The translations under genes and the position numbers were made by a program. Shown here one piece after another: positions 20,309-46,210 of a DNA stretch of 56,549 nt (its first letter is position 1; the number at the start of each line of letters is the position of its first letter). Under the pieces are notes generated by a model, which was not told the origin of the DNA, ran no database searches, and saw only the letters and a program-made list of their open reading frames with translations. The stretch comes from a virus. Location of the stretch: positions 1 to 56,549 of the IMG/VR virus record IMGVR_UViG_3300032265_000524, one strand, 5' to 3'.

Positions 20309-20316
20309 CATAAATA
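20309..20316 (+). promoter_or_regulatory. Putative late promoter box CATAAATA
   Basis: A 7/8 match to the T4 late box in the 58-base gap between the two giant genes, ending 24 bases before the ATG. The same 8-mer precedes 37787 and the tail sheath gene. Confidence 0.6.
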
Positions 20317-20340
20317 TAATATCAAGAGGAATGTAATAAA

Positions 20341-23300
20341 ATGGCTGAATTTTATTTAGGTAGAATTAAATTTGTATACCAAGGTAACTGGACAACAGGT
20401 ACATCATACGTAGTTGACGACGTAGTCACTGTAAGCGGAAAAACATACATCTGCGTAGTGAGTCACCAAGCATCTACACTGTTTGTAACTGATCTTAACT
20501 TTGCACCTTCAAAGTGGAGTTTAGTATCAGATGGCCAAAGTTGGAAAAATACTTGGACAACATCAACATACTATAATGCAGGCGACTTAGTAAAGTATTA
20601 TGGTATAGTCTACCAATGTAATGCAGCACACTTCTCTAGCCCATCGGCAAGTGCTTCATCGGTTGCTGTAACATCAGCTAGTGGTGTCAACGGTTTAGCT
20701 ACCCTAACATTTAGCGCACAGTCAAGTGCTCCGTTTGCAGTTGGACAAACTATTACAGTTACCGGCATGCAGCCAAGCGGTTATAATGCTACAGCAGTTG
20801 TTACATCGTGCTCAACAACACAAGTTTCATATGCAAATAGCACAACAGGTGCTGCTACAGTTAACGGTTATGTAAATGCAGTTGGCGGTCTAGAATCTAA
20901 TCAAGCTAATTGGGACACATTTGCAAATGCATTCAACTGGAGAAACAGTTGGGCTGTATCAACATACTATCATGTGGGCGATATTGTTAGTTACGGTGGT
21001 TATGTTTACTACTGTACTACTTCACATAATTCAGCAGCTACAACAACACTAGGTCTTGAAAATAATTCCTCAAATTGGCAAGTGTTTAATGCCGGTATTA
21101 CCTATCTAGGTGCATGGAGTTCAGGTGTACGCTATCGCACAAATGACATTGTTAAACAAGGTGCAGATCTATGGATTTGCGTAAGCCCACACACATCTGG
21201 TGTAGCAATTGATGCCACTGGTACATACTTCCAAACATTCTTAAATGGCCTTGAATTTTTAAATTCGTGGACAAATTCAACTGCATATATCGCAGGTGAT
21301 ATTGTTACCTATGGCGGTTATTCATATGTAGCAACACAAAACAATACTAATCAAATTCCAAGCACAGCTACTTCTTATTGGGTAGTGTACACAACAGGAT
21401 TTAACTTTGTAGGTGATTGGAATAATTCAACATCATACAAAACTGGTAACGTTGTAAGACAATCCGGTTATACATATCTAGCTACTACCGATAGTGCTCC
21501 TATTACACAAACTGTAACGGCAGCTAATACATCAAGTAATAATGCATTTACAGTAACATCTACAACTGGTATCGTGCCAGGTATGAGTGTTAACTTTAGC
21601 TATACACCAGTAAGTGTTACAGCAACAGCAACAACAGCAACAGGTAGCTACATTCTGTTAAGTTCAACAGCCGGCCTGGCAACTGGCATGCCTGTTACAT
21701 TTAGTGGTAGCGGTCTAGTAGGTTCTGGTATCACTAACGGTCAACTGTACTATATTACAGCAATCGCTGGCGCACAAATTGTTGTTAGCTTAAACTTCCA
21801 AGGTTCTCCAATTACATTAACAAGTACAAGTTCAGGTACACGTACTGGTACTGCTGGCGGATATCAAGGCGGCGTATTAGGTACAGCTACATATTATGTA
21901 CAAAGTGTTCCAAGTTCAACAACATTTACTGTTGCTACAACACAAACAGGAACAGCATTAGCCCTGGTAGCTGCTTCTGGCATTATGACTGCTACCGTAG
22001 CAGTACAACCACCAAATGCTTCATACTGGGCAAGATTAAATAACGGTTTCCAATGGACTAACTATCCACAGACATTTGCAGCACCAACAGTTACAACAGT
22101 AACCGGTTCAGGCAGTTCTGCAACATTTTCAGTTATTGCATCAGGAACGGTTTATACAGTTACACTAACTGGCGGCGGCAGCGGATATGCAACAGGTAAT
22201 GTACTTAAGATTGCAGGTACACAAGTTGGCGGACTTAGCCCAGCTAATGATATCTTAATTACAGTTGGTACAACAACTGGTGTTATTACAGCAGGTAACT
22301 TTACATTCACTGGTTTTTCATCAACATGGCAAGCCGGTCAGTCATACAGCCTAGGTGATGTTACATTCTGGGGTGCTAGCAGTTATACTTGTGTACAGTC
22401 ACATGTATCTGCAACAGCTAATCGCCCAGATAGCGATACAACAGCAACATTTTGGAATCTACTTGCTTCAGGTGCTGAGGTTGCAACGCTAACCACACAG
22501 GGCGATACATTCTACTACGGTCCTAACGGTCCTACAAGATTACCTATTGGTACTAACGGTCAAATACTGCGTACAACAAACGGTTATCCAACATGGTCAA
22601 CTTATGGCTTAATTAATAATTTAGTTTATGTTGGTCCTCTAGGTACAGATGCACCGGCTCCAGGATTTGGTCTAAGTATAGACACTCCATGGCAAACTAT
22701 TCGTTATGCTTGCCAACAAATTGAAGCTGGATATCAAAACCCACAGGCTCAGATGCTATTGCAAATGAACAAACAGTTCATGATGCAAGAAGTTGCAAAC
22801 TATGTAACCTATACATACAAAGCATCAGTTACAGGTACAAGCACAGGAGCATTCCTAACATCTAACACTGCTGGTTTAACACTAGGTCAGCCAATTAGAT
22901 TTGCTGATGCACAAAGTTTCTTGGTAACAGGCGTTGCTGTGAGTACAACAACAACTTACTATGTAAAAGCAATTACAAATAATACTAGCTTTACAGTTTC
23001 ATTAACACTTAACGGTGCTGCTCTAAACGCAACTGGTACTGGTACTACAACAGTTAGTTATTATACATCACTAACAAGTGAAATAGCACGTGATGCTGGT
23101 ATTGTTATTGATGCATTTATATTTGATCTAGGCCATGGTGGTACAACTAAGACCACTGCCGCAGCTCTAGCATACTTTACTACTGCCGGTAACTCATTTA
23201 TTAATACAGCAGTACAGGCTCAAGCTAATGTGTTCATTGGCGCACAAAATTATCTAGCAACATTAGTTAGTCTTGTACTAGCCAACACAGCTCCAGGCAG

Positions 23301-26300
23301 TAATTATCAAACATTGAACAGCATTTCAGTAGGTAATCGCGCGATCCAGCAGATCAATGCCAACTATACAGCTGAAGCCAATACAACATCACAGGTACAA
23401 GGTTATATCTCAATTATTACTACAGGCCTAGCAGCCGGTGCTTCTACTGCTATTCCTACAGTGATTAATCCGCAGACAACTATCAGCATTAAGACTGGTA
23501 CATTTAACGAAGTATTACCAGTTAACGTGCCAAGTTTCACAGCATTAGTTGGAGACGAACTACGTTCGACTGTAGTTCAACCAATGGCTGCTGATCCTCA
23601 GTTAGCTACAGTTATTCCTAAGAATTCTGCAGCACTAACACGTATCCAATCATTAATACCAAACTTGATGAGTAATACAACAATTACTCCAACATCTGGT
23701 AACACAACTAGTCAAGTAACTTCACTACCGGCCGCAAGTGCAGGTAGCACAACAGCTATCACAAACTTAAAGGCAGCATACAACACATTGTATGATATTG
23801 TAGCAAGTGGTACTAGCAATACTCCGGTAACTATAATGCCAAGCCCAACAGGTTGGGCTGCTGGGTCATTAACCAACATTGCTTATGCATGTTCAGGTAA
23901 TGCTACTGGTTCAACAGCTGGTTATGCCAACGGTGTTGCACAAATTAAACAAAACTACGCATTCTTAGTTGGTGAGACATTAGGTTGGTTACAAACCACA
24001 TACCCATCAATTTGGTCAGCAGAAGGTCCAACAAATACAGTTAGTGGATATAGAGATATTTCACACATTTTAGATTCTATCGTTTACGATATGACCTATG
24101 GTGGTAATTCAATGAGCGAAAGAGCTGGTAGTTCTTATTACTCATTCTATGCTCTAAATATTCTTGCTAGCGAAAAAGCACCGTTCATTCAAGCAATTCA
24201 ACGTTTACAAACAGTTATTGCTAGTGTTATAACAACAACTTCAGTATCACCTACAAACACTACAGTTGCACAAGTAACTAGTGGTAGTGCAGGTAGTACT
24301 AATGCAGCAACTTACGCTCAAGCATTATTAACTATGGTAATTGATTGGATCAGCAATGGTTCAGCAGATGCAGTAGTAATGCCTTACACTGGTTGGATTA
24401 GCTCTGACCTACAAGCAGCGGTTGCCGCAGTTAACGCACAAATCGCAAACAACAATATCCAATTAGATACACTAGGTTGGGTAACAAAGTATTATCAAAA
24501 TGTACCATTAAGTCAATCACTTACACAACGTGATGCTGGCCTAACCGCAACATATCTAGCATACGACATGGCATTTGGTAGTAACTTTAATGCTATCCAA
24601 TGCGGTCGTGCTTATTGCCGTACTAACACTAGCGATATTGCTCTACGCACTACTGCTGAGTTAGCACCAACACTTGGCGCAATCAACTTCCAATACTACA
24701 AAGTTAAACAGATTGCTGCATCAGGTGCAACAGCACAGATTCAAACAACTATCGATGACATCAATGCATTCTTAGTTGGCGGTGTTGCTCCTCCAGTAAT
24801 TACATGGCCACAACCTGCATTACCTTCTGGTATTACATATCCAGCAGTTGCAGGCTCAAATGTAACAGGTACTGGTACTAGTGCAACATTTAACATTACA
24901 CGTTACAATAACGGTAATGGTACAATTACAACTACTAATGGTACTATTGTAAATGCAGGCGGTAGTGGTTACTCAGTTGGTAATACAATTAAGATTCTTG
25001 GTACACAAATTGGTGGTGCATCACCAAGCAACGATCTAGTATTACGAGTTTCGCAAGCTAATGCTGGCGCAATCGTAGCAGTAACAGAATCAACAGTACA
25101 TGGTGCATTAAGATTATTAGAATCTAACCGTGCATTTATTCTAGCTGAAATTATTGCTTACATTAATGCTAACTATTCAAGCATTACAACAGATCCTAAC
25201 TACACAGTTGCAAAAACACAACGTGACATGGGTTATGTTTTAGACGCTATCCACTACGATTTACTATACGGTGGTAACTGGCAATCACAAGATGCTGGTA
25301 TGGCCTACTACTCAGCATTGTACGGCTCACAAATTACCAGTGGGTTTGGTACAGCATTTGTAGCAACTCTTGGATATGCAAGTACTATTGCACAAAGCAT
25401 TATTACAAACACCGCAGTTGGCAGCCCGTTGCAAGTTACAGTATCACAAGTACTAGCAGGTGCTACACAAACAACTGGTAATTCAGGTATTGCTACAACA
25501 GCAGGTGCATTGTTTACAATCGTAACTAACATTGTTACTAGCGGTTTAACAAACGGCGTTCCAACAAAGACAGTTACAACTATTGCAGGTACTAATACAT
25601 TTACAACTAGTGCAGCGCACGGTCTAAGTATTGGTGACATTGTTATTCCACAAACAACAAGCAACGGTCTAGTATCAACTGTAATTGGTTCTGGTACACA
25701 ATATTTTGTTGCTAGCATACCAGCTAACAATCAATTTACATTATCAGCTAGTTACAATGGCACAACGCTAACATCATTTACAAACGGTACAGGATTAACT
25801 ATTGCTGTTCAAACTATTAATATGCCATACATTGCATGGACAGGTACAACTAATCTTGCAGCCTTCCAAGCAGTTAGTTCAGCTCTAGTAGCTAACTATC
25901 AATCACAAGTAGTAACATTTATTAATACAAACTACTCAGCATTGACATATAACTCAACCTACGCACAACGCGATACTGTTAAAGTTACTCGTGCTGCGAT
26001 GTATGATATGTTGTTAGGTAGTAATTTTGCAAGTATTACAGCAGGTCGTGCTTATAATAGAACACAAGATTATCTAGTTCAAGGCTATGAAAAAACAGCA
26101 ACTGTCGCTGCACTAAATTATCTAATAACATTAGTAGCAAGTACACTAAGCCCATATACCGCCCAAGCTACTTCAGCTACAGGCAGTATTAGTTTAATAA
26201 TTAACTATCTATCATCTGCTAGCAACACAGTAAAACCAGAAGTTAACGGTACTGTAACTTATAACAATAACGTTAATCTGATCAAAGGTGCTGAAATTTT

Positions 26301-29300
26301 ACGTGCTAACATTCCATTCTTAGCAAGTGAAGCAGTTGCTTACTATGCAGCCAACTATGGCGGTACAGTATCAACATTAGCAGCCAGCGGTAATTTAATT
26401 ACAACTAGTGGTAATCATAACTTAAATGTAAATGATCCAGTAAAATTCTCAGGAACAGCAGCCGGTGGTATTGCTATCAATACAATCTATTATGTTGCTA
26501 GTACTCCAAGTAATACAACATTTACAATCACAACTGTTGAGGGATACCTAAATACTAATACTGGTACAACATATCCAGTAGTAACACTTTCAAGTGTTGG
26601 CAGCCCAACATTAACAGTTGCCTACTATCACGATGCAACTCAAACTAGAAGTGATATATCATACTTCTTAAATGCAATCGTGTATGACTTACAATATACA
26701 GGTAACTATAGAAGCTTAAGAGCAGCACAAGTATTATACAACGCTGTAAACGGCTCACAATTAAGCAACATGTGGTTAGTACGTAATGGTTGCGGTGTAA
26801 GAAACATGACCTTAACTGGCCTAAACGGCACGTTAACAGTTGCAAACGCCTATGGAACAAAACGTCCAACAGCAGGTGCGTACACATCATTAGATCCAGG
26901 ATTTGGTCCTTATGACTCAAATGCTTGGGTGTCAAGCCGTTCTACTTATGTACAGAACGTTACTTTGTTTGGTAATGGTTGTACAGGTCTTAAGATCGAC
27001 GGAGCACTACACGCAGGCGGTAACCGTTCTATTGTTGCTAACGACTACACAACAATTATGTCCGACGGTATTGGTGCATGGTGTACAGGTAGCAACGCCT
27101 TGACAGAACTTGTTTCAGTATTCTGTTACTACAGTTACTCTGGTTACTTAGCAGAGCTAGGTGGTAAGATTCGTGCTACTAATGGTAACAGTTCATATGG
27201 TACATACGGTGTTATAGCTGAAGGTGTTGACTCATACGAAGTACCATTGTACGCTAACCTAAATAATCAAGCTAACGGTGCTTATATCACTAACGTTCTA
27301 ACAGACAGTGTAACTCAAGTTCTACGTATGGAATATGAAAACGCTGGTCAAAATTACTCTAACGTACAATACACTATCGGTGGTACAGGCTATAACACTG
27401 TAACAGTTGGTAATGAATTCCGTGACGGTGCAGTATTTGAATCACGTTTAATTGATCTTAATGACGGTAACGGTGTGGGTGGCGCAAACTATCTAGCACA
27501 GGCTAACATTGGTCAAGGCGGCAATACATATAGTATTACAATCGCAGGTACTGACTTACAATTAGCCACAGCATATATTGGTGAACGCATCGTTCTAACA
27601 GCAGGTTCCGGTGTTGGACAAAGTGCATTTATCGTTGCATTTAACAACGGTAGTAAAACAATGCTAGTAGCAAAAGAAGGATTTACAAGTTTAACTGTAA
27701 ACTCTGCAAGTGCAACAACTAATGCCTTTACACTAGCAAGTGGTAATACTAATACATTGTACGCAAATATGCCAATTTGGTTTACTGGTACAGCAATCGG
27801 TGGAGCAAATATCTCTGTAGCTAACCCAGCAACAACCCCAGGTAGTATTCCGTTCTATGTAATTGGTACATCATTAACTCTTAATGGTACAACTTTCCAA
27901 GTTGCGGCATCGAGCGGTAGTACAACTCCAGTGGTATTAAATAATGATTCAGGTACTATGACTGTAGTAGCTGCAGGTTGGGATCATGTAATTCCAGGTA
28001 AGGCAATTGCTTCTGCACTTGACTTAACTAGCCAATATATTATTGAACCAAGACTAACATATTCAGCTCCGGGATACACAGCAACAGCAAGAACATTACC
28101 AAGCTCGCAAGAGTGGACTGCGGTAACATACGCAGCAGGATACTATGTTGCAGTTTCAGGTACTCCATTGGGTTCAAATACAGCAGCTTATTCATCAGAC
28201 GGTAAAAACTGGTCATTAAGTGGTCAATTACCAACATCACAAAACTGGCAATCAGTCACCTACGGAGGCGGCCAAGGTGCAGTAGCAACAGCAGTTGTTG
28301 GTGGCTTAGGCGGTGTAGGTTGTATATTATCATGTACATTAGGTACAGGACTTGCTTCACAACAAGTTGCATCAGTAACAGTAGTTGCTGGCGGTACAGG
28401 CTATTTGACTGCTCCAAGTATTGTGTTTACAAGTGCTAGCGGCACAGGTGCTGTAGCAACATGTACAGTGTTAAATGGTGTAGTTCAAACTGTAACAGTT
28501 ACTTCACCAGGTAGTAGCTATGCTACAGTTCCTACTGTAGTAGCCGCAACAGACAGATTGACCAGTATCATTGTTAACCGTGCAGGTCAAGATTACTGTA
28601 TTGCTCCAAACGTCACAGTTTCAGGTGGTGGTTCAAGTAGTCAAGCCACAGCTCTTGCATCAGTAAGTAACAACGGTCTTTCAACAATTACATTGTTAAC
28701 TGTAGGTTCAGGATACACTAGTACACCTACTGTGACTATCACAGATACTAATGCTAAATTTATTGCAACAGCCAACGGTGTTATCAACACAGCATATCAA
28801 TCACCAACTAATTTATCTGGTACTTGGACATCAGGTGGATCATTACCAGCTACAAGTTTCGTAGCAGTAACCTACGGTACAATTAGTTCAACACCAACAT
28901 GGGTAGCAGTAGGTGGTACAAATTCAGCAGCAAGTTCATCAGATGGATTAAGCTGGATTAGTAAAGTTATTCCTACACTAGCGTTAGGTTCATACGTAAG
29001 CGTGGCATACGGTGCAGGTTATTTTGTAGCAATTTCAAACAGTACAGCAACAGCCTACTCATTAAATGGTAATACATGGACAGTAGGTGGTGCATTACCA
29101 AGCGCACAAAATTGGAATAGTGTAACATTTGGTAACGGACGTTTTGTAGCTGTTTCAGGTACAGGTACAGCAACTGCCTACAGTATTGACTTTGGTCTAA
29201 CATGGACATCATTTGGTGCAGGTCTTCCAAGTGTACAAAACTGGAAAGCTGTTACATACGGCCAAGGAACATTCTTGGCAATCAGTGATGACGTAACTGC

Positions 29301-32300
29301 TCCATTATCTGTATCAAGCGTAAGTCGAGTTGGTGCAGCATCAATTTCAACTGTATCGCGTGTTGGTACAGCGGCTGTAAGCACAGTTGCACGTGTGGGC
29401 AATGCTCCAACATCGACATATCAACGCTATGGTACATTTAACTTCTACTCAACAGCACGTTCAGGTTCAACAGTAACAGTTAATACTGGTACTGCTGTTC
29501 AAACTTCACTAGCTACCGCAGTAGTAACAACAAGTATTGTTGGTTTATCAGGACAGTTTACTATTGCTGTTAGCTCAACATCTGGCATTTACAAAGGCAT
29601 GTTGGTAACCGGTACAGGTATTGGTGCTGGCGCAACAGTTTCAAACTCATGGGACGGATCATCTTCAGTATTATTAACTGTAGCTAACAGTTCAAACCCA
29701 AGTGGTACAGGTACATTTGGTAACAATGCTGTGACAGTTGGTAGTACCGCAGGTATTACTGTAGGTACAAACGTAGCTGGTACAAACGTAAGTGGCACAG
29801 TTTCAGCAGTATACACTTCACCAGGTAACGTGGTAATACTAAGTGCTACTAACGGTGGTACACCAAGTGGTACAGGTACATTCTATACAACTGTCGCACA
29901 CGGATTAACAGTAGGCGGCGTAACAACAACTGCTACAGGTACAATTAATACTAACTATGTAACTGTTGGCAGTGTAGCAGGTCTAATGGTTGGCATGAGT
30001 GTATCAGCAGGTACTGGTTTTGTAATTGGTTCTACAATTACAGCGATCAACGGTTCTACACTAACACTGAGTAGTGCGTTAACAACAAGCCCATCAAGTG
30101 GCTCAGTAACATTTACCTATAACGTAACTGTCGCTAACAGCACAAGTGGCCTAGACACAACCAACGTAGCTATTACTGTAACAACTACATCAGCATTTAC
30201 CTACACACTAGGTAGCGGTACTGTTGCTACAACATATACAACAACTGGTCTAATTACTCCAAGCACAATTACAGCATTTGTAACAACTACAAGTGCTGGG
30301 TTATGGAATACTATAAGCACAACAAGTACAACAGGTACTATTGTTAATAATGTAATCCCAACAGCAATCACCGTAGCAAACACTTCTGGTGTTTACACTG
30401 GTATGGCAGTTAATGATCTATACGGTTCAGCAACACTAACACCAAGTGCTACAAACGCAAGTGGCAACGTAATCACTGTTCCAAGTACAGCAACACTAGT
30501 ACCAGGACAGCCAGTGCAATTTACCAGTACACCTGCAACAAGTATAATAAACGGTAGTGCTAATAGTTCACAAAGTATTTCAATTACCGGCGGGGTACTA
30601 ACAGGTACAGTTGGAACATTGACCTACGCAGCACAGGCTACAATACCTTTTGTTCCAAACGAAACTATTACAATTACTGGTGCAAATCCTCCAACACTAA
30701 ATGCAAACTGGGTAGTTCAATCTGCTACTAAGACTAGTGTGACATTTGCTACAGCATTAAGCAGTGCCGCAGTAACACCAACATTAACTGGTGCTGCCGT
30801 AGGTACACCTGGTGTATTTACAGTAAGTTCTACAACTGGTCTAGTAGTAGGCGAGGCAATTACATTTACAAACGTAATTCAAACTCCGACACTAACAGCA
30901 ACAACTAATGCTTCATTCACCACAACTGGCTCAGGTATTAGTGGATCAACACTGACTATTGGAACTATTACAGGTGGTACAGTAGTTATAGGTGCTGTTA
31001 TTTCAGGCGGAACTATTCCAGCTGGTACATATATTACTGCTAACCTAGCCGGTGGTAGTACTAACGGCTCTACATGGAGTATTAGTAACTGGATTGGGAC
31101 TTCAATACCTACACAAACTACACAGGCAATTAACGGTGCAGTAAACTTAATCACATTGACTAATACTACAGGTATTGTAATTGGTGAGTCATTTATTCCA
31201 ACCACAACTAACGGTGGATTAACTGGTTTATCAACTTACTATGTAACTGAAGTTATTAGTGCATCTAATCAAATTGCAGTCAGCACGAGTTATCTAGGTA
31301 CAGCTAATCAGACATTAACTACTACAACAGGTCGTACAGATGCTACAACATTTGGCAGTATATTTGGCGGCCTGACATCAGGTACAACTTACTATATTGC
31401 AACATTACCAGTTAGCCCAGTAAACAGCATGACTCTAAGTACAAGTGCTTCATTAACACCGACATTTAACGTAACAACTGGTGCTAACGGTTCATGGACT
31501 AGTTCAGCTGGTGCTGTCCTAGCGGCAGGTACTATTGCAACTGGTGCAAACGTTGTTCCATTGGCAAGCACTTCAGGTCTAGTAACTGGTCAATCAGTTT
31601 ACTTTAGTGCTCCAACAACTGCTAGCGGTACAGTGATATCAACTAATTCAACCGGCAACTTAATACAGGTTAATAATACAACCAGTTTGGCAATCGGTAA
31701 GAGTATTACATTTAATGGAACACTAGCCGGTACTAATTTAACAGTTGGTCAACAGTATTTTGTGTTGACAATTCCAACTCCGGGAGCCAACGGTACAATT
31801 ACTGTTGCTAACACACCGGGCGGCACAGCAGTAGTAGTTAATACTATAGCATCATTTGGTACGCCTCCAGGATTTACATCAAGCTATGCAATTTCAGGCA
31901 GCGCATTGAACACCTATAGTTCAGGTACACCAACAGTTGCTGGTTCTGTAGGTAGCAATATTGCTATCAACACACAGGGACTTGGATATGGTGTTGGACA
32001 ACCAGTAACATTTGGCAGTGCGTTTGGTAACGTCACTACAAGTACAACTTACTTTATTCAAAGTTTGAATACAGCAGGTATCAATGGATACATTGCTCCG
32101 GGTACTGCTACATCGTTTACAGGTAGTATTTCAGGTACAACATTGACAGTAACCAGTGTGCCAACAGGTTCTGGTATTACAACAGGTATGGTATTAAGTG
32201 GTGGTACTATTGGTACTAGCGTATATATTGTATCTAACGTATCAGGAACTGGTACAAGTGCTTCAAGTTCATGGACAATTAATACCACAGTATCACAGAC

Positions 32301-35300
32301 ATCAACAACAATTACAGCAACACCAGTGTTACTAACAGTAACCACTGTTGGTAGTGGTACAGTAACTCCTGGTATGTATCTAAGTGGTGGTTCAGTAACT
32401 GCTAATACTATAATTGTTGCTAACAGTTCAGGTAGTGGTGGTACTGGTACATACTTTGTAAACATTAATCAATCTAGAGATAGTGCAGGTACTCCTGGTA
32501 GCTATAATGCAACTGCGATCAGCATTACCACAAGCCAAGGTGGCGGCGGCGCATTAACAGTAGGCCAAGGCGGTACAGGAACTGCTACTATCGCAGGTGC
32601 TGTACAACTAGCATCTATAAACGGACTAGTATCAGGCTCAACAATTACATTTGGTGGCTCAACAGGCGCAAGTGGTATTTCAACAGGTACTACACAGTAC
32701 TACATTGTTGATGTTATTGGTTCAGGTATTCCTGGTGTAATCACAATTTCGTCAACATTTAATGGCGCATATACAAGTATTACAGGTGCTTCATTATCAA
32801 GTGCTACATTTACAGCTGGTGCTCCAGTTCAAATTAGTGTAGCATCAACAGGCTCCTTGGCTACACAAACTATTGCAGTTACATCTACTAGTGGTAATAA
32901 TATTACTACAACTAGTTCAGTAACTGGATTAGGTATTACAGCAGGGCAACCAGTAACATTTGCATCAAGTTTAGGTAACATTATTGCTGGTACAGTTTAC
33001 TATGTATTGACTGCTAGTGGTACAACAATGACTATCAGTCAACAGTCAGGTGGCAGTACATTTGCTGTTGGTACAGGCGGTAGCAATACAGCAAATATAC
33101 AAGGTACTGTACAGCTGGCATCTACAACTGGTCTAACAGTAGGTCAGCCAGTAACATTCAGTGCAGCTTCAATTCCAGGAACTGTAACCGCTACAAATGC
33201 TACAGGTAACTTAATTACTGTTGGCAATACAGCAGCATTGGTAATTGGTCAGGCAATATCGTTTAGCGGTACACTAACAGGCACAGGTATAACAAGCGGA
33301 GTTACATACTACATATTGACTATTCCAACACCAGGTGCTGGTGGTACAATTACAGTCAGCCTTGCATATGGCGGATCAGTTCTACCAGTGTTAACTAATG
33401 CTTCAGTAACAGCTAGTTACTCAGCAGGTGGTCCAGGCTATGTAACACCTAATGCTACTGCTACAAGTTCATCTGGTAATACTGTAACATTGTCAAGTGT
33501 AACAGGCGTATCAATTGGCCAACCAATAACATTTACTGGGGCAGGTCTAGTAGGTAGTTTAATTGTAGGAGGTCAAACATACTACATCCTAAGTATAGCA
33601 AGTACTAATATTACTATAGGCCTCACACAGGGTGGCTCAGCTGTGACATTGGGTAATGCTAGTTCAGGTACACTAACTGCTACAATTGGTGGTAATTTAT
33701 TTGGTAACTTGAATGCTAGTTTATTCTACTATATTACAACAATTTCTGGTAATACTTTAGCAATTAGCCAAACACAAGGTGGCACACCATATGTGCATAT
33801 CTTGGCACAAGGTCTGGCTTCAGGTACAGCAGGTGGTACAGCATTTGGTAATATGCTATCAGGAATTCCATACTATATCACAAGTATAACTGGTAACAAT
33901 CTTACAATTAGTACAACATTTGGCGGAACAACATTTGTTCCAGGTAATGCAGCTGGCGCAGCAACAACTTCTACAGGTGGCCTAACAAATACTGGTATAA
34001 CTCCGAGTACTATTTACTTTGTATTAGCAGTTGCTTCAACAACAACATTTACAGTATGTGCAACACAATATGGTACACTAGCAGTTCCGCTAGTAACAAC
34101 TAACCTAGGAGCTACTTCAGTACTATCGGGAGGTTATTTACCAGCAAACACTACGGTATTCAGCGTTAACTATCAAACAAATACTGTAACATTAAGTGCT
34201 AATCCTATTGCACCAATGTCAACTATATCAATATTCTTCCTACCAATTGTAACAATCGGTAGTACACTAGCAGTTGACGGTACATTTACAATTAATCCTG
34301 TAAGTGCAACAGTGTTTAGTTTAACGACAACAGGTGCTAACGTTGCAGCTGGCACAGCGATCGCTACTGGTCTAGCTACATTTGTAACACCAACATCAAC
34401 TGTTGTTACAAGCGTACCGCACGGATACCTAACAGGTTATACTGTTAATCTTTCAGGTGTTGTAACAAGCGGTCCTACTGGATTTGACCAAACTGGTGTG
34501 TCAATTAACGTAATTAACAGTACATCGTTTACATTTACCAACACAGGTTATGCTTCTTTAGTAGCTACAAGTGCTACAACAGGCACTGTAACTCCAAATA
34601 CACCGTCAGCATTTGCTACAATCACAACTAGTGCTCCACACTACTTTACAACAGGATTGTCAGTAACTGTTTCAGGTGTTTCAACAACTGGCTTTAACGC
34701 CAGCGGAGTAACTGTAACTGTAACTGGTGCTAACACATTTACGTACAGTAATTCAGGTATAAGTGTAGCAACAACAGCAGTTACCGGCGCTTCGGCAAGT
34801 TCAACAAGCAATATTGCTACATTAACAACACAAACAGTACACGGATTGTCAACTGGTAACACAGTAACAATCGTTGGTACAGGTGTTACTGGATTTGACA
34901 TTGCCAATGTAACTATTACAGTTACAAGCACTGTAGCATTTACCTACGCAGATGCAGGTTCAAGTATTGGTGCTACATCAACAACTGGTTTTGTCTACTT
35001 GCCAAGTAACGTGGCAGCAACAAGCCCAGACGGTTTAAACTGGACTTCACGCACATTGCCAAGCGCATCAAGCTGGCGTGCCGTGGCATTTGGTAATCCA
35101 AATAGCAATCCACTATTTGTTGTAGTGTCTGACACACCGGGTACATTTGCAGCCAGTGTGCGTACAGGTGCTACATCACAAGGTCGTGCAAAAGTAATCA
35201 GCGGCGCAATCAGCGAAGTACGTATGATTGAGCCAGGTTCAGGATATCCAAAAGGCACAATTTCAGCAACCTATGCTCCTGTGGTAATGACAGTTAACAG

Positions 35301-36681
35301 TTCAAGTACTACTAACATTACTGTAGCCGCAACAATTACTGGCGTAGTAGCAAATCAACCAGTTACATTTGCAAGCACAGTTGGAACATTGGCAGCTAAT
35401 ACAACATATTATGTTGTTACTGCTAGCGGTACAACACTGACAGTTTCAAACGTAGTTGGCGGTTCTGCACTGTCAGTAGGTACTACAACTAGTTTAAGTG
35501 TATCAGCAACTACACAAAGTATAGTGGTTGTTGACAATACTGAAAACTTAGTGGCAAATCAACCAGTTGAGTTCCAAGGAACACTAACAGGATCTGGTTT
35601 GTTAACAAATACTCAATACTATCCAATTACAGGTAGTATCTCAAGTACAAGTTTTGCAGTGACACTAACTAGTGGAACATTGGCTCCAGTTGGATTGTCA
35701 GCAGCTACATTAAGTGCTACTTACACAGCAGGTCCAATCTTTACTATCACAGACGTTAATAAGACTAGAGCAGCAAGTATCAGAGTTAGAACTGGTAACG
35801 GTGTATTAGGTAACCCAACCTTTACTAACCGTGGTAATAACAATACCACTTCAAGTGCTACTGTAACTGGCGATGGTTTCTCAGATATCTATCAACCAGC
35901 TAACTTTATCAACGTTAATAATATGTTCTCAATCCCAACACCGGGTGCAAACGTAACATTTGCAAGTGTACCAGGCGTATACTACAAACTAGTTACAATT
36001 TCAAACATTCTTGGTGTCGCTGGTAATTATACTGCTACATGGCAGATTAATCCTTCATTGACAACATACTTGGCCCCGGCACACAATGATTTGATTACAA
36101 CAAGATTGAAATACAGTCAAACACGTTTAACAGGTCATGACTTCTTGTACATTGGTACTGGTAACTTTACGCAAACTAACTATCCAAATGTTAATATTGC
36201 TAATGCTATCCAAGCAAATCAACAGTTGTTTAGCGGTGGCGGACGAGTGTTCTTTACAAGTACTGACCAAGATGGTAACTTCAACGTTGGTAACTTGTTT
36301 GCTGTTCAACAGGCAACTGGTACAGCTACAATTAACGCTAGTGCATTTAACTTGTCAGGACTACAATCCTTACAGTTAGGTAACTTAACAGTTGGTACAG
36401 GATCTGCGGTTATTACTAGCTTCAGCTCAGACCCATATTTTACTGCTAACAGTGACAATATTTTACCAACACAGAAAGCTATTAAGACCTTCATCACATC
36501 ACAAATTGGTGGCGGACAATCTAGTTTGAACGTAAATACACTGACAGCTGGTGTTGTGTTTATTGCGGGTAACGTGATAACTACAACAACTGGTGGACAG
36601 ATCCAGGTAAAAGCAAAGATGAACTTTGTAGGCGGTATCGACGGTGCAGCAGTAGCAATGCCGTTCTTTATGCAAAGATAA
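20341..36681 (+). CDS. Giant modular virion protein of 5,446 residues
   Basis: An uninterrupted 16.3-kb gene. It follows the plan of the 2,661-aa protein: seven CBM5/12-like W/Y/H units (residues 1-700, with insertions), a beta-helix start (LVYVGPLGTD...PWQTIRYACQQI, about 760-800), a core from M2144 (RNGCGVRNMTLTG to NGNSSYGTYGVIAEGVD), a seven-bladed propeller from about 2591, and a C-terminus with STDQDGNFNVGNLFAVQQAT and LPTQKAIKTF. Differences are expansions: six helical RD...YGGN units instead of one, about 19 YY modules, a ~165-residue GSGY-repeat insertion in blade 2 (2644-2808) and a ~1,900-residue insertion in blade 6 (2985-4888). No signal peptide, membrane segment or protease site is evident. 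An AGAGGA lies ten bases upstream of the ATG. Likely a very long adhesin or decoration fibre; the function is inferred. Confidence 0.85.
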   Translation: MAEFYLGRIKFVYQGNWTTGTSYVVDDVVTVSGKTYICVVSHQASTLFVTDLNFAPSKWSLVSDGQSWKNTWTTSTYYNAGDLVKYYGIVYQCNAAHFSSPSASASSVAVTSASGVNGLATLTFSAQSSAPFAVGQTITVTGMQPSGYNATAVVTSCSTTQVSYANSTTGAATVNGYVNAVGGLESNQANWDTFANAFNWRNSWAVSTYYHVGDIVSYGGYVYYCTTSHNSAATTTLGLENNSSNWQVFNAGITYLGAWSSGVRYRTNDIVKQGADLWICVSPHTSGVAIDATGTYFQTFLNGLEFLNSWTNSTAYIAGDIVTYGGYSYVATQNNTNQIPSTATSYWVVYTTGFNFVGDWNNSTSYKTGNVVRQSGYTYLATTDSAPITQTVTAANTSSNNAFTVTSTTGIVPGMSVNFSYTPVSVTATATTATGSYILLSSTAGLATGMPVTFSGSGLVGSGITNGQLYYITAIAGAQIVVSLNFQGSPITLTSTSSGTRTGTAGGYQGGVLGTATYYVQSVPSSTTFTVATTQTGTALALVAASGIMTATVAVQPPNASYWARLNNGFQWTNYPQTFAAPTVTTVTGSGSSATFSVIASGTVYTVTLTGGGSGYATGNVLKIAGTQVGGLSPANDILITVGTTTGVITAGNFTFTGFSSTWQAGQSYSLGDVTFWGASSYTCVQSHVSATANRPDSDTTATFWNLLASGAEVATLTTQGDTFYYGPNGPTRLPIGTNGQILRTTNGYPTWSTYGLINNLVYVGPLGTDAPAPGFGLSIDTPWQTIRYACQQIEAGYQNPQAQMLLQMNKQFMMQEVANYVTYTYKASVTGTSTGAFLTSNTAGLTLGQPIRFADAQSFLVTGVAVSTTTTYYVKAITNNTSFTVSLTLNGAALNATGTGTTTVSYYTSLTSEIARDAGIVIDAFIFDLGHGGTTKTTAAALAYFTTAGNSFINTAVQAQANVFIGAQNYLATLVSLVLANTAPGSNYQTLNSISVGNRAIQQINANYTAEANTTSQVQGYISIITTGLAAGASTAIPTVINPQTTISIKTGTFNEVLPVNVPSFTALVGDELRSTVVQPMAADPQLATVIPKNSAALTRIQSLIPNLMSNTTITPTSGNTTSQVTSLPAASAGSTTAITNLKAAYNTLYDIVASGTSNTPVTIMPSPTGWAAGSLTNIAYACSGNATGSTAGYANGVAQIKQNYAFLVGETLGWLQTTYPSIWSAEGPTNTVSGYRDISHILDSIVYDMTYGGNSMSERAGSSYYSFYALNILASEKAPFIQAIQRLQTVIASVITTTSVSPTNTTVAQVTSGSAGSTNAATYAQALLTMVIDWISNGSADAVVMPYTGWISSDLQAAVAAVNAQIANNNIQLDTLGWVTKYYQNVPLSQSLTQRDAGLTATYLAYDMAFGSNFNAIQCGRAYCRTNTSDIALRTTAELAPTLGAINFQYYKVKQIAASGATAQIQTTIDDINAFLVGGVAPPVITWPQPALPSGITYPAVAGSNVTGTGTSATFNITRYNNGNGTITTTNGTIVNAGGSGYSVGNTIKILGTQIGGASPSNDLVLRVSQANAGAIVAVTESTVHGALRLLESNRAFILAEIIAYINANYSSITTDPNYTVAKTQRDMGYVLDAIHYDLLYGGNWQSQDAGMAYYSALYGSQITSGFGTAFVATLGYASTIAQSIITNTAVGSPLQVTVSQVLAGATQTTGNSGIATTAGALFTIVTNIVTSGLTNGVPTKTVTTIAGTNTFTTSAAHGLSIGDIVIPQTTSNGLVSTVIGSGTQYFVASIPANNQFTLSASYNGTTLTSFTNGTGLTIAVQTINMPYIAWTGTTNLAAFQAVSSALVANYQSQVVTFINTNYSALTYNSTYAQRDTVKVTRAAMYDMLLGSNFASITAGRAYNRTQDYLVQGYEKTATVAALNYLITLVASTLSPYTAQATSATGSISLIINYLSSASNTVKPEVNGTVTYNNNVNLIKGAEILRANIPFLASEAVAYYAANYGGTVSTLAASGNLITTSGNHNLNVNDPVKFSGTAAGGIAINTIYYVASTPSNTTFTITTVEGYLNTNTGTTYPVVTLSSVGSPTLTVAYYHDATQTRSDISYFLNAIVYDLQYTGNYRSLRAAQVLYNAVNGSQLSNMWLVRNGCGVRNMTLTGLNGTLTVANAYGTKRPTAGAYTSLDPGFGPYDSNAWVSSRSTYVQNVTLFGNGCTGLKIDGALHAGGNRSIVANDYTTIMSDGIGAWCTGSNALTELVSVFCYYSYSGYLAELGGKIRATNGNSSYGTYGVIAEGVDSYEVPLYANLNNQANGAYITNVLTDSVTQVLRMEYENAGQNYSNVQYTIGGTGYNTVTVGNEFRDGAVFESRLIDLNDGNGVGGANYLAQANIGQGGNTYSITIAGTDLQLATAYIGERIVLTAGSGVGQSAFIVAFNNGSKTMLVAKEGFTSLTVNSASATTNAFTLASGNTNTLYANMPIWFTGTAIGGANISVANPATTPGSIPFYVIGTSLTLNGTTFQVAASSGSTTPVVLNNDSGTMTVVAAGWDHVIPGKAIASALDLTSQYIIEPRLTYSAPGYTATARTLPSSQEWTAVTYAAGYYVAVSGTPLGSNTAAYSSDGKNWSLSGQLPTSQNWQSVTYGGGQGAVATAVVGGLGGVGCILSCTLGTGLASQQVASVTVVAGGTGYLTAPSIVFTSASGTGAVATCTVLNGVVQTVTVTSPGSSYATVPTVVAATDRLTSIIVNRAGQDYCIAPNVTVSGGGSSSQATALASVSNNGLSTITLLTVGSGYTSTPTVTITDTNAKFIATANGVINTAYQSPTNLSGTWTSGGSLPATSFVAVTYGTISSTPTWVAVGGTNSAASSSDGLSWISKVIPTLALGSYVSVAYGAGYFVAISNSTATAYSLNGNTWTVGGALPSAQNWNSVTFGNGRFVAVSGTGTATAYSIDFGLTWTSFGAGLPSVQNWKAVTYGQGTFLAISDDVTAPLSVSSVSRVGAASISTVSRVGTAAVSTVARVGNAPTSTYQRYGTFNFYSTARSGSTVTVNTGTAVQTSLATAVVTTSIVGLSGQFTIAVSSTSGIYKGMLVTGTGIGAGATVSNSWDGSSSVLLTVANSSNPSGTGTFGNNAVTVGSTAGITVGTNVAGTNVSGTVSAVYTSPGNVVILSATNGGTPSGTGTFYTTVAHGLTVGGVTTTATGTINTNYVTVGSVAGLMVGMSVSAGTGFVIGSTITAINGSTLTLSSALTTSPSSGSVTFTYNVTVANSTSGLDTTNVAITVTTTSAFTYTLGSGTVATTYTTTGLITPSTITAFVTTTSAGLWNTISTTSTTGTIVNNVIPTAITVANTSGVYTGMAVNDLYGSATLTPSATNASGNVITVPSTATLVPGQPVQFTSTPATSIINGSANSSQSISITGGVLTGTVGTLTYAAQATIPFVPNETITITGANPPTLNANWVVQSATKTSVTFATALSSAAVTPTLTGAAVGTPGVFTVSSTTGLVVGEAITFTNVIQTPTLTATTNASFTTTGSGISGSTLTIGTITGGTVVIGAVISGGTIPAGTYITANLAGGSTNGSTWSISNWIGTSIPTQTTQAINGAVNLITLTNTTGIVIGESFIPTTTNGGLTGLSTYYVTEVISASNQIAVSTSYLGTANQTLTTTTGRTDATTFGSIFGGLTSGTTYYIATLPVSPVNSMTLSTSASLTPTFNVTTGANGSWTSSAGAVLAAGTIATGANVVPLASTSGLVTGQSVYFSAPTTASGTVISTNSTGNLIQVNNTTSLAIGKSITFNGTLAGTNLTVGQQYFVLTIPTPGANGTITVANTPGGTAVVVNTIASFGTPPGFTSSYAISGSALNTYSSGTPTVAGSVGSNIAINTQGLGYGVGQPVTFGSAFGNVTTSTTYFIQSLNTAGINGYIAPGTATSFTGSISGTTLTVTSVPTGSGITTGMVLSGGTIGTSVYIVSNVSGTGTSASSSWTINTTVSQTSTTITATPVLLTVTTVGSGTVTPGMYLSGGSVTANTIIVANSSGSGGTGTYFVNINQSRDSAGTPGSYNATAISITTSQGGGGALTVGQGGTGTATIAGAVQLASINGLVSGSTITFGGSTGASGISTGTTQYYIVDVIGSGIPGVITISSTFNGAYTSITGASLSSATFTAGAPVQISVASTGSLATQTIAVTSTSGNNITTTSSVTGLGITAGQPVTFASSLGNIIAGTVYYVLTASGTTMTISQQSGGSTFAVGTGGSNTANIQGTVQLASTTGLTVGQPVTFSAASIPGTVTATNATGNLITVGNTAALVIGQAISFSGTLTGTGITSGVTYYILTIPTPGAGGTITVSLAYGGSVLPVLTNASVTASYSAGGPGYVTPNATATSSSGNTVTLSSVTGVSIGQPITFTGAGLVGSLIVGGQTYYILSIASTNITIGLTQGGSAVTLGNASSGTLTATIGGNLFGNLNASLFYYITTISGNTLAISQTQGGTPYVHILAQGLASGTAGGTAFGNMLSGIPYYITSITGNNLTISTTFGGTTFVPGNAAGAATTSTGGLTNTGITPSTIYFVLAVASTTTFTVCATQYGTLAVPLVTTNLGATSVLSGGYLPANTTVFSVNYQTNTVTLSANPIAPMSTISIFFLPIVTIGSTLAVDGTFTINPVSATVFSLTTTGANVAAGTAIATGLATFVTPTSTVVTSVPHGYLTGYTVNLSGVVTSGPTGFDQTGVSINVINSTSFTFTNTGYASLVATSATTGTVTPNTPSAFATITTSAPHYFTTGLSVTVSGVSTTGFNASGVTVTVTGANTFTYSNSGISVATTAVTGASASSTSNIATLTTQTVHGLSTGNTVTIVGTGVTGFDIANVTITVTSTVAFTYADAGSSIGATSTTGFVYLPSNVAATSPDGLNWTSRTLPSASSWRAVAFGNPNSNPLFVVVSDTPGTFAASVRTGATSQGRAKVISGAISEVRMIEPGSGYPKGTISATYAPVVMTVNSSSTTNITVAATITGVVANQPVTFASTVGTLAANTTYYVVTASGTTLTVSNVVGGSALSVGTTTSLSVSATTQSIVVVDNTENLVANQPVEFQGTLTGSGLLTNTQYYPITGSISSTSFAVTLTSGTLAPVGLSAATLSATYTAGPIFTITDVNKTRAASIRVRTGNGVLGNPTFTNRGNNNTTSSATVTGDGFSDIYQPANFINVNNMFSIPTPGANVTFASVPGVYYKLVTISNILGVAGNYTATWQINPSLTTYLAPAHNDLITTRLKYSQTRLTGHDFLYIGTGNFTQTNYPNVNIANAIQANQQLFSGGGRVFFTSTDQDGNFNVGNLFAVQQATGTATINASAFNLSGLQSLQLGNLTVGTGSAVITSFSSDPYFTANSDNILPTQKAIKTFITSQIGGGQSSLNVNTLTAGVVFIAGNVITTTTGGQIQVKAKMNFVGGIDGAAVAMPFFMQR
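23065..26763 (+). repeat. Six diverged helical units (RD...DA..YDL.YGGN) in the giant protein
   Basis: Units are anchored by an Arg-Asp pair at residues 917, 1238, 1397, 1628, 1877 and 2103, followed by a YD-x-x-x-GG/GSN element and an A-G-x-x-Y helix. Examples are RDMGYVLDAIHYDLLYGGN and RDISHILDSIVYDMTYGGN. Spacing is 159-321 residues because beta modules are interspersed. The 2,661-aa paralogue has one unit (R597). Confidence 0.7.
29308..29472 (+). repeat. Five tandem 33-bp (11-residue) repeats at the insertion boundary
   Basis: Residues 2990-3044 read as five 11-mers of the form x-x-S-T-V-x-R-V-G-x-A (SVSSVSRVGAA, SISTVSRVGTA, AVSTVARVGNA, PTSTYQRYGTF, NFYSTARSGST). The first three are close copies and the last two degenerate. 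They sit exactly where propeller blade 6 gives way to the large insertion. Confidence 0.8.
29473..35005 (+). repeat. Large module array inserted in propeller blade 6
   Basis: About 1,850 residues of Thr/Ser/Gly-rich beta modules. I count eleven YY cores (e.g. TYYVTEV, QYFVLTI, VYYVLTA, TYYILSI, YYITTIS, IYFVLAV). Three tandem HG-type units are anchored by His at 4694, 4767 and 4834 (pattern H-x-x-TG-x-x-V-x-x-SGV-x-x-x-GF), and several VGMxVxGxG variants also occur. Blade 6 resumes at 4891 with the TSPDGLNWTSR strand. Confidence 0.75.
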
Positions 36682-36703: not shown

Positions 36704-37033
36704 ATGGCAACAGGAAGATTAGGCAACACTCAATTAGTAGCAAGTACACTAACTAGCGTTTACGCAGTTACAGCTGGCTACTACTCAGTGTTCAACGTTT
36801 CGATTACTAATACAGGAACTAGCAGTACAACATTTAGTATAGCTTTAAGCACCGCTACTGTCGCAGGTAACGTGTTGGCTAGCGAATATATTGAATCTGG
36901 CACAACCTTGATCGGTAATGGTGTATTTGAACGTACAGGTTTAGTATGTGGTGCAAACATGAACGTATGGGTTACAACACCAGGTTCTGCTATAAACGTT
37001 ACAGTTTATGGTATTGAAACATCAACATCATAA
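36704..37033 (+). CDS. Small beta-sandwich virion protein (109 aa), copy A
   Basis: 109 residues starting MATGRLGNTQLVA. It is clearly paralogous to the 109-residue product at 37787: both share MATGRLG, a central VLASEYIESGTTLIGN / PIASEWIEYNTVLTGN block, the FERTGLV / LERTGII strand, and a GIE-S-T end. All-beta composition and lack of catalytic motifs suggest a head, collar or fibre decoration protein. AAGGAA lies upstream. It follows the giant gene by 22 bases and is probably cotranscribed with it. Confidence 0.65.
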   Translation: MATGRLGNTQLVASTLTSVYAVTAGYYSVFNVSITNTGTSSTTFSIALSTATVAGNVLASEYIESGTTLIGNGVFERTGLVCGANMNVWVTTPGSAINVTVYGIETSTS

Positions 37034-37786: not shown

Positions 37787-38116
37787 ATGGCAACAGGAAG
37801 ATTAGGAAGTTCTGACTTAGCGGCAGCAACTTACACAACACTATATACTGTACCGGCAAATACCTATACAGCAATTTCTGTTAACTTTGTTAACAGAGCA
37901 AACACTCAAGTAAGCATCAGAATGTCGATAAGTGCTACGGCCAACGTTGGCTCTCCAATTGCATCTGAATGGATTGAGTATAACACCGTACTAACCGGTA
38001 ACCAAGTTCTAGAAAGAACAGGTATCATTGCAGATACAGGTGCTAACATTGTAGTATGGGCTAGTTCAGCACTAGTAACAGCTTATGCTTTTGGCATTGA
38101 ATCATCTACTACGTAA
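37787..38116 (+). CDS. Small beta-sandwich virion protein (109 aa), copy B
   Basis: Paralogue of the 36704 protein, of equal length, with the same MATGRLG opening, ASEWIEYNTVLTGNQVLERTGII block and GIESSTT end. It is diverged enough that the duplication is not recent. It lies two genes downstream of its partner with its own promoter, so the two copies may be expressed at different levels or occupy different positions in the virion. Function unknown. Confidence 0.65.
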   Translation: MATGRLGSSDLAAATYTTLYTVPANTYTAISVNFVNRANTQVSIRMSISATANVGSPIASEWIEYNTVLTGNQVLERTGIIADTGANIVVWASSALVTAYAFGIESSTT

Positions 38117-38134: not shown

Positions 38135-38455
38135 ATGGGACGCAATATTACAACAACTGGAGCACAAACTGGAACTACTAGATATATTTCTAGCACATAT
38201 TCAGCATTGGCCAACGATAGAATTATCTGCACAGCAGGTGGTTTTACAATCACATTGCCAGCAACTGCAAACTTGATCGACGGCGATACAATTCAAATTG
38301 TCGACATTCAAGGTAACTTTGGTGGTTCGCCTGTTACTGTTAACAGTAACGGTGCAGCAATTCAAGGAACAGTACAAAACGTATCATTGAACGTTAATAA
38401 TACTACAGTAACTATCGTATATGCTCCATCATACGGTTGGTATATCACAAGATAA
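38135..38455 (+). CDS. Small fibre-domain protein (106 aa)
   Basis: 106 residues beginning MGRNITTTGAQTGTTRYISSTYSALANDR. FTITLPATANLIDGDTIQIVD followed by GNFGGSPVTV and a final YGWYITR is a compact beta domain I recognise from the ends of many phage tail-fibre proteins, where 'TLPA...GDxIxIxD' repeats. Here it stands alone as a gene. AAAGGA lies eight bases upstream. It probably forms part of the same appendage as the next five genes. Confidence 0.6.
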   Translation: MGRNITTTGAQTGTTRYISSTYSALANDRIICTAGGFTITLPATANLIDGDTIQIVDIQGNFGGSPVTVNSNGAAIQGTVQNVSLNVNNTTVTIVYAPSYGWYITR

Positions 38456-38483: not shown

Positions 38484-39278
38484 ATGGCTACAGTTGGACT
38501 TGGACAATTATTGGTTAACAGCACGAGTTCCGCGGCTCAACAATACAAACAAAACGTATTTGCGATCTATAACGGCTCGGTTAACCCACAGAACGGTGGA
38601 ACATGTTGCTGCTTTATAGTACCCTCTGGTGTTGGTGCATCATGGGTAACGTTTGAGCTGTTCGGTGGTGGTGGTGACGGCCCTGGTGGCTGCTGCTGTA
38701 TGGGTGCCTATAATGGTCCCGGTGGCGGCGCCTACGTTAAAAAGACTTTGCAAACAACAGCTGGTTGTGCCTACATTCTATGTGCAGGCTCATCAGGTTG
38801 CTGTCAAGTCAACTGTTGCGGCACTTGCGGATTCCCTAGTTTCGTAGTATGTGCTGGTAACTCAACAACTGCTGCTTGTGCTACAGGCGGAGCAGGTGGT
38901 TGTGGTCTATGCTGGCACGGTGGTTTCAATAACTGTACTGGTGTTTGCGTAGCAATGTTTACATCAGGATGTTCTAGCAGTTTAGGTGACTTTATTGTTC
39001 CATCTATGCAGAGCACACAAAAAGATTCAAACTATTGTACACAGTATAGCTATACATGGCAAGCTGGTACACCAAAATTAAGTAATAATAGCTGTCATAC
39101 ATTTGATATTTGTACCATTGGTATGGCACACTCAGGCTGTATGATGGTCGGTAGTTACACACCTGTTACACCATGTTCAGGTCCAGGTAGTCCTGGAATT
39201 GCTGGTGAAGGCTGCGGAGGCGGCTGCTGTTGGGGTAGCTGGGGCATGGGCGGCATGGTTGTAGTAACTTGGGGTTAA
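38484..39278 (+). CDS. Cys/Gly-rich virion protein 1 (28 Cys in 264 residues)
   Basis: 264 residues with 28 cysteines by count, many as CC or CCC. The N-terminal 55 residues are ordinary. CCC at 41-43 is followed by the signature WVTFELFGGGGDGPGGCCC at 54-72, shared with two other proteins in this cassette. The remainder alternates Gly-rich and Cys-rich stretches and ends in a WGMGGMVVVTWG strand. Gly-rich segments in phage adhesins such as gp38 can form polyglycine-II bundles that display receptor-binding loops. The cysteines could cross-link such a bundle or bind metal. The protein is intracellular before lysis, so disulphides would form only after release. Role inferred. Confidence 0.6.
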   Translation: MATVGLGQLLVNSTSSAAQQYKQNVFAIYNGSVNPQNGGTCCCFIVPSGVGASWVTFELFGGGGDGPGGCCCMGAYNGPGGGAYVKKTLQTTAGCAYILCAGSSGCCQVNCCGTCGFPSFVVCAGNSTTAACATGGAGGCGLCWHGGFNNCTGVCVAMFTSGCSSSLGDFIVPSMQSTQKDSNYCTQYSYTWQAGTPKLSNNSCHTFDICTIGMAHSGCMMVGSYTPVTPCSGPGSPGIAGEGCGGGCCWGSWGMGGMVVVTWG

Positions 39279-39296
39279 TAAAAGGAATTAATAAAA

Positions 39297-40013
39297 ATGA
39301 CAAGTAAAAATTTAGCATTAGGAAGTTTAAGTCCAGAGGACGCACAAGCGGCAGCAGAAGCGCATGTTGGTGAAGCTGCGACATCTGAGAGATTTGAACG
39401 TATTACATTTGAATTTGAATACGCTGTACCTGACGAGTACCTAAGTCAGTCAATGTCTAAAGGCTTAAAGGCCAAGTGGACATACAGTGGTCCTAAAACA
39501 CTTTATGTATTTGTTAAACAAGATACACATAAATTAGAGGGAAAATTTCACTATCACGAAGGCGATGACGGTCATCTAATCCCAACACCTCCAGGTGAAG
39601 TTAAAATTGCTATTGATCCAACTAAAGAACCATTAGTTGCTAGTATCATTTATAATGACTTAGACTACGGTACATTGCCTCATACAGAGGAGCCTTTACC
39701 AAACGGTAAAACATATGGTGCTCCAATTCCTACACCTCCAGATCACTGCTATGAAGTAGAAGAAATTGAATGGGATCCAGTAGCTGAGAAATTTAAAACT
39801 CCAACAGTACTAAAAGTCCCACATATGACATGGGACGGAATTAAAGCGTCTCGTAATAATATGCTAAAGTGGTCAGATATGAAAGTACGTACTTGTAACC
39901 CTGCTGAAGTCAAAGCATGGGAAGATTTCCGTAAAGAATTAAGAGATTTACCAAAAGTATGGAAGGATATCGATGCTTGGAAAGTACAACTCCCAGAACA
40001 ACCAAGTGCTTAA
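39297..40013 (+). CDS. Tail-assembly-chaperone-like protein A
   Basis: 238 residues, soluble, acidic at the start. Residues about 35-75 (ITFEFEYAVPDEYLSQ...WTYSGPKTLYVFV) match residues about 8-52 of the 41585 protein. The C-terminal segment near 175-225 (PHMTWDGIKASRNNMLKWSD, then WEDFRKELRDLPKVWK) resembles the phage tail-fibre assembly chaperone domain (W...R..RN.LL..SDW...W..YRQ.LRDI, the family called Phage_tail_APC). It sits between two Cys/Gly-rich proteins. A likely role is folding or trimerising them, as Tfa proteins do for fibres. This is an inference from motif and position. Confidence 0.65.
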   Translation: MTSKNLALGSLSPEDAQAAAEAHVGEAATSERFERITFEFEYAVPDEYLSQSMSKGLKAKWTYSGPKTLYVFVKQDTHKLEGKFHYHEGDDGHLIPTPPGEVKIAIDPTKEPLVASIIYNDLDYGTLPHTEEPLPNGKTYGAPIPTPPDHCYEVEEIEWDPVAEKFKTPTVLKVPHMTWDGIKASRNNMLKWSDMKVRTCNPAEVKAWEDFRKELRDLPKVWKDIDAWKVQLPEQPSA

Positions 40014-40027
40014 TAGGGTATAACTAA

Positions 40028-40813: not shown

Positions 40814-40826
40814 GGGCAGAATATAA

Positions 40827-44398: not shown

Positions 44399-44407
44399 AG
44401 TTTTTCC

Positions 44408-46209: not shown

Positions 46210-46210
46210 G

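Follow-up and report, generated by a model that had tools for sequence, protein, structure and literature searches.

The window analyzed here (56,549 nucleotides of viral DNA, positions 1 to 56,549 of IMG/VR record IMGVR_UViG_3300032265_000524) contains a single open reading frame of 5,446 codons whose product, judged from homology and gene order, is an outsized form of the Kyanoviridae 'tail fiber-like protein', a family otherwise 1,090-1,477 residues long. We predict that it is a late structural gene of a T4-superfamily myovirus and encodes a giant tail-fiber scaffold, orthologous to the 1.1-1.5-kaa Kyanoviridae fiber, that would trimerize, contact glycans and carry docked tip proteins; we give this reading a probability of about 0.78. 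The extra length is nested, with three module types inserted within older modules, for an approximately four- to fivefold growth.

Membership in the Kyanoviridae fiber family

The phrog_9851 'tail fiber protein' family matches the giant protein at both ends, the C-terminal block at 9.1e-43. Three elements of this family are present, namely the N-terminal signature with CBM5/12-like repeats, the central core (residues 2132-2303, 41% identical to Mosig and 37% to S-CAM1) and the C-terminal block, and the neighborhood agrees, as small tip gene(s), a chaperone and a carbamoyltransferase gene lie downstream. Local alignments to the fibers of S-SSM7, P-SSM2, S-CAM1 and Mosig are colinear, beginning with the N-terminus and CBM repeats and continuing through the last CBM and a beta-helix-like start, a short KTGTF..LP..VP segment, the central core and the C-terminus. 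The fiber locus is also syntenic with those of S-SSM7, P-SSM2 and S-CAM1, including the downstream carbamoyltransferase gene. Among phage records, the C-terminus matches only cyanophages, the pelagiphage Mosig and unannotated marine virus contigs, at 42-56% identity.

Queries with the C-terminus returned 276-494 relatives from viral contigs, while a close-relative scan of 84,980 bacterial and archaeal genomes (GTDB collection) returned none. In 85 other contigs checked whole, the orthologue runs as one uninterrupted frame, and complete orthologues span 2,807-5,446 residues (51 start-to-stop sequences, near-identical ones and the window included). The C-terminal block measures 187-188 residues in every orthologue in which its anchor matched. 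The conserved C-terminus reported in the preliminary description is confirmed, with invariant columns and the strongest constraint along the giant protein (dN/dS 0.05). Modeled as a monomer, the block gave a low-confidence structure.

Nearly all relatives' contigs carry a second homologous frame upstream of the giant gene, 2,500-3,300 residues long when complete. Its counterpart in the window, the 2,661-residue paralogue, is 54.8% identical to the giant protein in the central core and also contains the beta-propeller, as found by sequence match. Two large contigs of relatives, G020 (270 kb) and G034 (278 kb), encode several more long frames of 1.1-3.1 kaa with weak copies of the C-terminal block, which are probably further fiber-type proteins. 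Giant fiber genes thus occur as tandem pairs in a widespread group within the T4 superfamily of phages; automatic annotation would give most of them no name.

Table 1. Coordinates of the giant fiber gene, its modules and the neighboring genes in the window.
Feature	Position	Strand	Remarks
Paralogous fiber gene, 2,661 aa, in tandem, without propeller array	12297-20282	+	Clearly paralogous by alignment
T4-type late-promoter-like motif ATAAATA	20310-20316	+	About 30 bp 5' of the ATG of the giant frame
Shine-Dalgarno-like AGAGGA	20325-20330	+	Read directly from the sequence
Giant tail-fiber-type protein gene, single frame, 5,446 aa	20341-36681	+	ATG at 20341, TAA ending at 36681
N-terminus (MAEF.LGRIKF) and CBM5/12-like repeats, residues 1 to ~720	20341-22500	+	PF02839, phrog_9851, cyanophage fiber homology
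Probable right-handed beta-helix start (VYVGPLGTD...DTPWQTIRYAC), residues ~757-792	22609-22716	+	Homology to P-SSM2, Mosig and S-CAM1 fibers
YY modules, residues 807-2143	22759-26769	+	8 HMM matches; interrupt presumed beta-helix core
Conserved central core, presumed beta-helix, residues 2132-2340	26734-27360	+	At most 41% identity to cyanophage and pelagiphage fibers
BNR/Asp-box beta-propeller, first part, residues ~2569-2985	28045-29295	+	Orthologous region predicted; Foldseek
Array of diverged 64-aa beta repeats, residues 2980-4891 (1,912 aa)	29278-35013	+	Inserted in one blade hairpin
Last propeller blade(s) after array, AATSPDGLNWTSR...	34993-35220	+	
C-terminal block, residue 5259 to end	36115-36681	+	Homologous to cyanophage fiber C-termini; invariant columns
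MATGRLG protein, 109 aa, first gene downstream	36704-37033	+	3e-17 to 106-aa gene directly downstream of P-SSM2 fiber
MATGRLG protein, second copy	37787-38116		
Probable tip or trimer domain, 106 aa	38135-38455	+	Homologous to C-terminal domain fused to S-SSM7 and Mosig fibers
Three Gly/Cys-rich candidate adhesins	38484-39278, 40028-40813, 40827-41579	+	Homologues downstream of cyanophage fibers
Two tail-assembly-chaperone-like genes	39297-40013, 41585-42523	+	phrog_4912 tail fiber assembly

Nested architecture of the giant protein

Because the cyanophage and Mosig fibers are so much shorter, approximately 4,000 residues of the giant protein are additions. The preliminary description had arranged its modules as a linear stack; this arrangement did not hold, as several modules lie inside other modules. 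The CBM-like units were recovered as seven stretches matching PF02839 (CBM_5_12, 2.9e-38), into which two 64-residue beta repeats are inserted (residues 427-540). The beta-helix start that was proposed to follow them is backed by homology to the cyanophage fibers and by its motif; Pfam gave no beta-helix match in the giant protein, and we infer the fold from these two lines. An HMM shows that the YY modules, earlier listed together with helical repeats, form a recurrent family (approximately 124 residues, with 5-15 matches per orthologue); their helicity was read from the sequence. A core segment matching the cyanophage fiber (residues 1032-1086) lies among them, and they are themselves interrupted by 64-residue beta repeats at residues 829-895, 1742-1810 and 2009-2068.

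This 64-residue repeat occurs in approximately 23 copies in the giant protein, singly at several places and as an array, and the length of the orthologues rises with the number of copies (r = 0.83). Self-BLAST of the whole protein, which is rich in Thr, Gly, Ser and Ala, found no strong internal repeats, indicating that the repeats are old and diverged. A pair of repeats is predicted to be all-beta (pLDDT 81), and a structure search returned no PDB match below E 0.18. The P22 coat I-domain matched the repeat by profile only (E 0.02), and E1_FCCH scored just under the Pfam cut-off. A phycobilisome-like helical module, at E 0.007 in Pfam, also fell short of the cut-off.

The propeller of the preliminary description was confirmed by AF2 models of the orthologues (pLDDT approximately 90), for which Foldseek found Ycf48, GH74 and designed propellers at E of approximately 4e-8 to 1e-7. 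It lies between the central core and the C-terminus; a sequence search among isolates gave one partial match, to a segment within the propeller. One of its blade hairpins, between YG.G.F.A and ATSPDG..W, has 8-9 residues in most orthologues and holds the array in four clades, with inserts of 1,912 residues in the window and 1,910 in its close orthologue L085, and of 1,036 (L102/L103), 777-788 (L088/L092) and 322 (L101) in the three other clades. The arrays are homologous to one another (45% over 720 residues between L088 and L102). One stretch of the L088 array is matched by two parts of the window array, suggesting duplication within the latter. In a tree of the C-terminal block, array carriers occupy four places with good support, which forces the array label to change four times. 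We nonetheless dropped four independent origins, because the arrays are homologous and a gain followed by losses, or exchange, is as likely; the distribution fits loss, exchange or repeated gain alike. Tentatively, and at less than even odds, this hairpin might serve as a dedicated acceptor for a beta-repeat cassette that can be acquired, dropped, swapped and enlarged from within (9, 322, 777-788, 1,036 and 1,912 residues), so that a lateral fiber branch of variable length would grow while the shaft and the fixed 187-residue C-terminal dock stay undisturbed. A limited literature search found no description of such nested growth or of a hairpin array.

Late-promoter motif and downstream cassette

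The sequence ATAAATA is the core of the T4 late promoter. Of the 51 orthologue sequences, a set that includes the window and some near-identical members, 50 have it within 80 bp upstream of the start, against a chance expectation of 0.005 per gene. All five NATAAATA sites in the window are directly upstream of genes; the ATAAATA positions are 20310, 37037, 37753 and 52543 on the plus strand and 50667 on the minus strand, each just upstream of a gene. The motif would allow late promoters to be mapped across this phage group.

Downstream of the giant gene is a cassette of small genes. The MATGRLG gene directly follows the fiber gene in P-SSM2, in S-CAM1 and in all four orthologue loci checked, and after it, ahead of the 106-residue protein, comes the gene for a MARYNT protein. 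The 106-residue protein matches residues 1374-1474 of the S-SSM7 fiber and 1155-1241 of the Mosig fiber (2e-9) and a separate S-CAM1 gene (9e-14). Beyond it, Gly/Cys-rich genes alternate with Phage_tail_APC chaperone-like genes. The third Gly/Cys-rich protein scores above the cut-off for PF21722 (Gly_rich_2) and the second just below it; for PF16778 (Phage_tail_APC) the second chaperone-like gene is above the cut-off and the first is weak. The Gly/Cys-rich proteins encoded in 38484-41579 have CCC motifs and a cysteine content unusual for phage tip proteins. Four orthologue loci were checked, and all have different genes where the Gly-rich ones lie here, three of the loci with triples of related genes. 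This is how a set of exchangeable adhesins on a shared scaffold would look, and the layout would be comparable to T4 genes 37 and 38.

Farther downstream, a minus-strand block (42578-47712) encodes a Nol-like carbamoyltransferase, a phrog_8954 protein, a NUDIX protein and two related proteins starting with M.RLFAFGCS(F/Y)T that look like SGNH hydrolases by eye. It is possibly a surface-sugar modification set beside the fiber genes.

Predicted function and alternative readings

In the fiber-scaffold reading, the protein would trimerize through a rod with the presumed beta-helix, and its CBM and propeller domains would adhere to host glycans. The fixed C-terminus would dock the small tip proteins (encoded at 38135-38455 and by the Gly-rich genes); these vary from relative to relative and would confer the fine host specificity. 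The extra modules would set the reach and the number of contact sites, with the array forming a lateral branch or an additional contact surface. Receptor specificity may reside partly in the exchangeable downstream proteins, although the adhesive parts might instead be in the giant protein itself. The very long adhesin of the preliminary description comes close to this, since homology, synteny, the late-promoter motif and the chaperone and tip-like genes all point to a tail fiber; the protein is better read as a fiber scaffold. A tape-measure protein was rejected: instead of a largely helical protein encoded between tail-tube and baseplate genes, we find propeller and beta-repeat modules in a fiber cassette.

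The genome is a mosaic, combining a fiber of cyanophage type with capsid and sheath genes nearest those of jumbo T4-superfamily phages (Phosso, Atu_ph07 and the Rak2/CBB group). The major capsid protein (1259-2428) is 67-72% identical to those of Phosso, Vibrio 2.275.O and the Rak2/CBB group. The tail sheath gene (52582-55941) encodes 1,119 residues, far above ordinary sheaths, and is closest to Phosso and Atu_ph07 at approximately 41% identity. The virus presumably comes from a freshwater lake, as we take from the IMG sample numbers. In 30 relatives' contigs we found no psbA-type gene, so that a cyanobacterial host is not supported.

This jumbo-phage affinity, the enlarged sheath and the many surface-type modules of the giant protein would favor a decoration or whisker protein coating the tail or head over a baseplate fiber, and phage CBB, a member of the same group, bears 119-nm tail hairs whose protein is unassigned. 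The relatives of the giant protein are nevertheless cyanophage and pelagiphage tail fibers, with no sequence match in the CBB group, and its gene stands with chaperone and tip genes; we regard a whisker as improbable. The particle-covering structure suggested in the preliminary description is conceivable given the 'hairy' phage CBB, and we found no evidence for it.

Cleavage of the translated product into several shorter ones, as a polyprotein or by autoproteolysis, would suit the extreme length and the clear module borders, and a related fiber, that of DSL-LC03, ends in an apparent S74 autoprocessing chaperone, as read from its sequence. We nevertheless think it a poor prospect, as Pfam found no S74 or other protease domain in segments of the giant protein, there is one late-promoter motif, and in all orthologues the conserved C-terminus closes a single protein. 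An S74-chaperoned tail fiber or spike was likewise discarded, with no Pfam match at E <= 0.1 in residues 4951-5446.

Integrity of the reading frame

As first described, the frame has no internal stop in 5,446 codons, nor does it contain any N. Its codon usage resembles that of its neighbors (GC 40.7%, GC3 21%, close to the neighboring structural genes). The gene is likewise uninterrupted in two further IMG/VR contigs (3300020733_000023 and 3300000439_000072; L085/L086), where its single frame has 5,441 residues. These two orthologues are one residue apart, and we count them as probably one virus assembled twice, not two independent species. Between the window and L085, 1,556 codon changes are synonymous and 681 are not, every indel adds or removes entire codons, and dN/dS is 0.12 overall and 0.05-0.24 across eleven segments, the 1,912-residue insert included. 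The giant frame is under purifying selection over its full length, and we regard it as a genuine gene, neither a chance ORF nor a chimera. The longest exact DNA repeat within it is 20 bp and tandem-repeat matches are trivial, making repeat collapse unlikely; together with the same gene in two other contigs, this largely answers the concern, raised at the outset, about a collapsed or chimeric repeat assembly. That two or more fiber genes or repeat blocks were wrongly joined is scarcely credible, even for a repeat-rich protein from a metagenomic assembly, given the organization shared with L085/L086 at 83% nucleotide identity, the selection on every segment, the lack of longer exact repeats and the presence of homologous arrays in the matching propeller hairpin of three further clades.

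Comparison with known systems

Within one orthologous family, the evolutionary route from a fiber of 1.1 kaa to one of 5.4 kaa can be read. Its natural members, at least 86, vary in module number, which makes it possible to test whether greater length brings reach, avidity or host range, and which part of the fiber system determines the host.

The giant protein is among the longest phage proteins, as proposed earlier, but it does not hold the record: PSSM7_090 of the cultured Prochlorococcus phage P-SSM7 (ADO99013.1, of phrog_701 type) is a 7,124-residue 'structural protein', intact at L255:1644-23018 and apparently little studied. Both are modular, single-frame structural proteins of T4-like phages, and they share two weak YY-type modules and a GG.GY..P module. 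PSSM7_090 is longer, belongs to another family and is encoded between the gp6 and gp9 baseplate genes; since homology over most of the length is lacking, we rejected a P-SSM7-type baseplate structural protein (phrog_701) as the identity of the giant. Giant phage structural proteins are therefore already known, and the present frame is an extreme new form of a known fiber family.

Within that family, SSSM7_113 of S-SSM7 (1,477 residues), PSSM2_301 of P-SSM2 (1,326), the S-CAM1 fiber (1,090) and Mosig_00063 (1,245) share with the giant the N-terminal MA[ED]F.LGR.KF, the CBM5/12 repeats, the central core, the C-terminal block RLTGHDFL...TDQDGNF...VPTQ.A and the small downstream genes. They are four to five times shorter and lack the YY modules, the propeller and the beta-repeat array; in S-SSM7 and Mosig the tip domain is fused to the fiber, whereas in the window it is a separate gene. 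An orthologue of the giant gene has been deposited already: A0A6J7WHK8, a 'ChiC_BD domain containing protein' of an uncultured Caudovirales phage that is annotated by its CBM alone and represented here by just the third part of a split model, is 58% identical to the orthologue L007 in the propeller and C-terminal region. WJZ47903.1 of DSL-LC03, a T4-like Synechococcus phage isolated from freshwater, has 3,161 residues, and its three YY modules, central core and C-terminal block follow one another as in the giant. It differs in that no CBM repeats or propeller were seen in it and in that a long shaft follows the block, ending in what reads as an S74-type chaperone.
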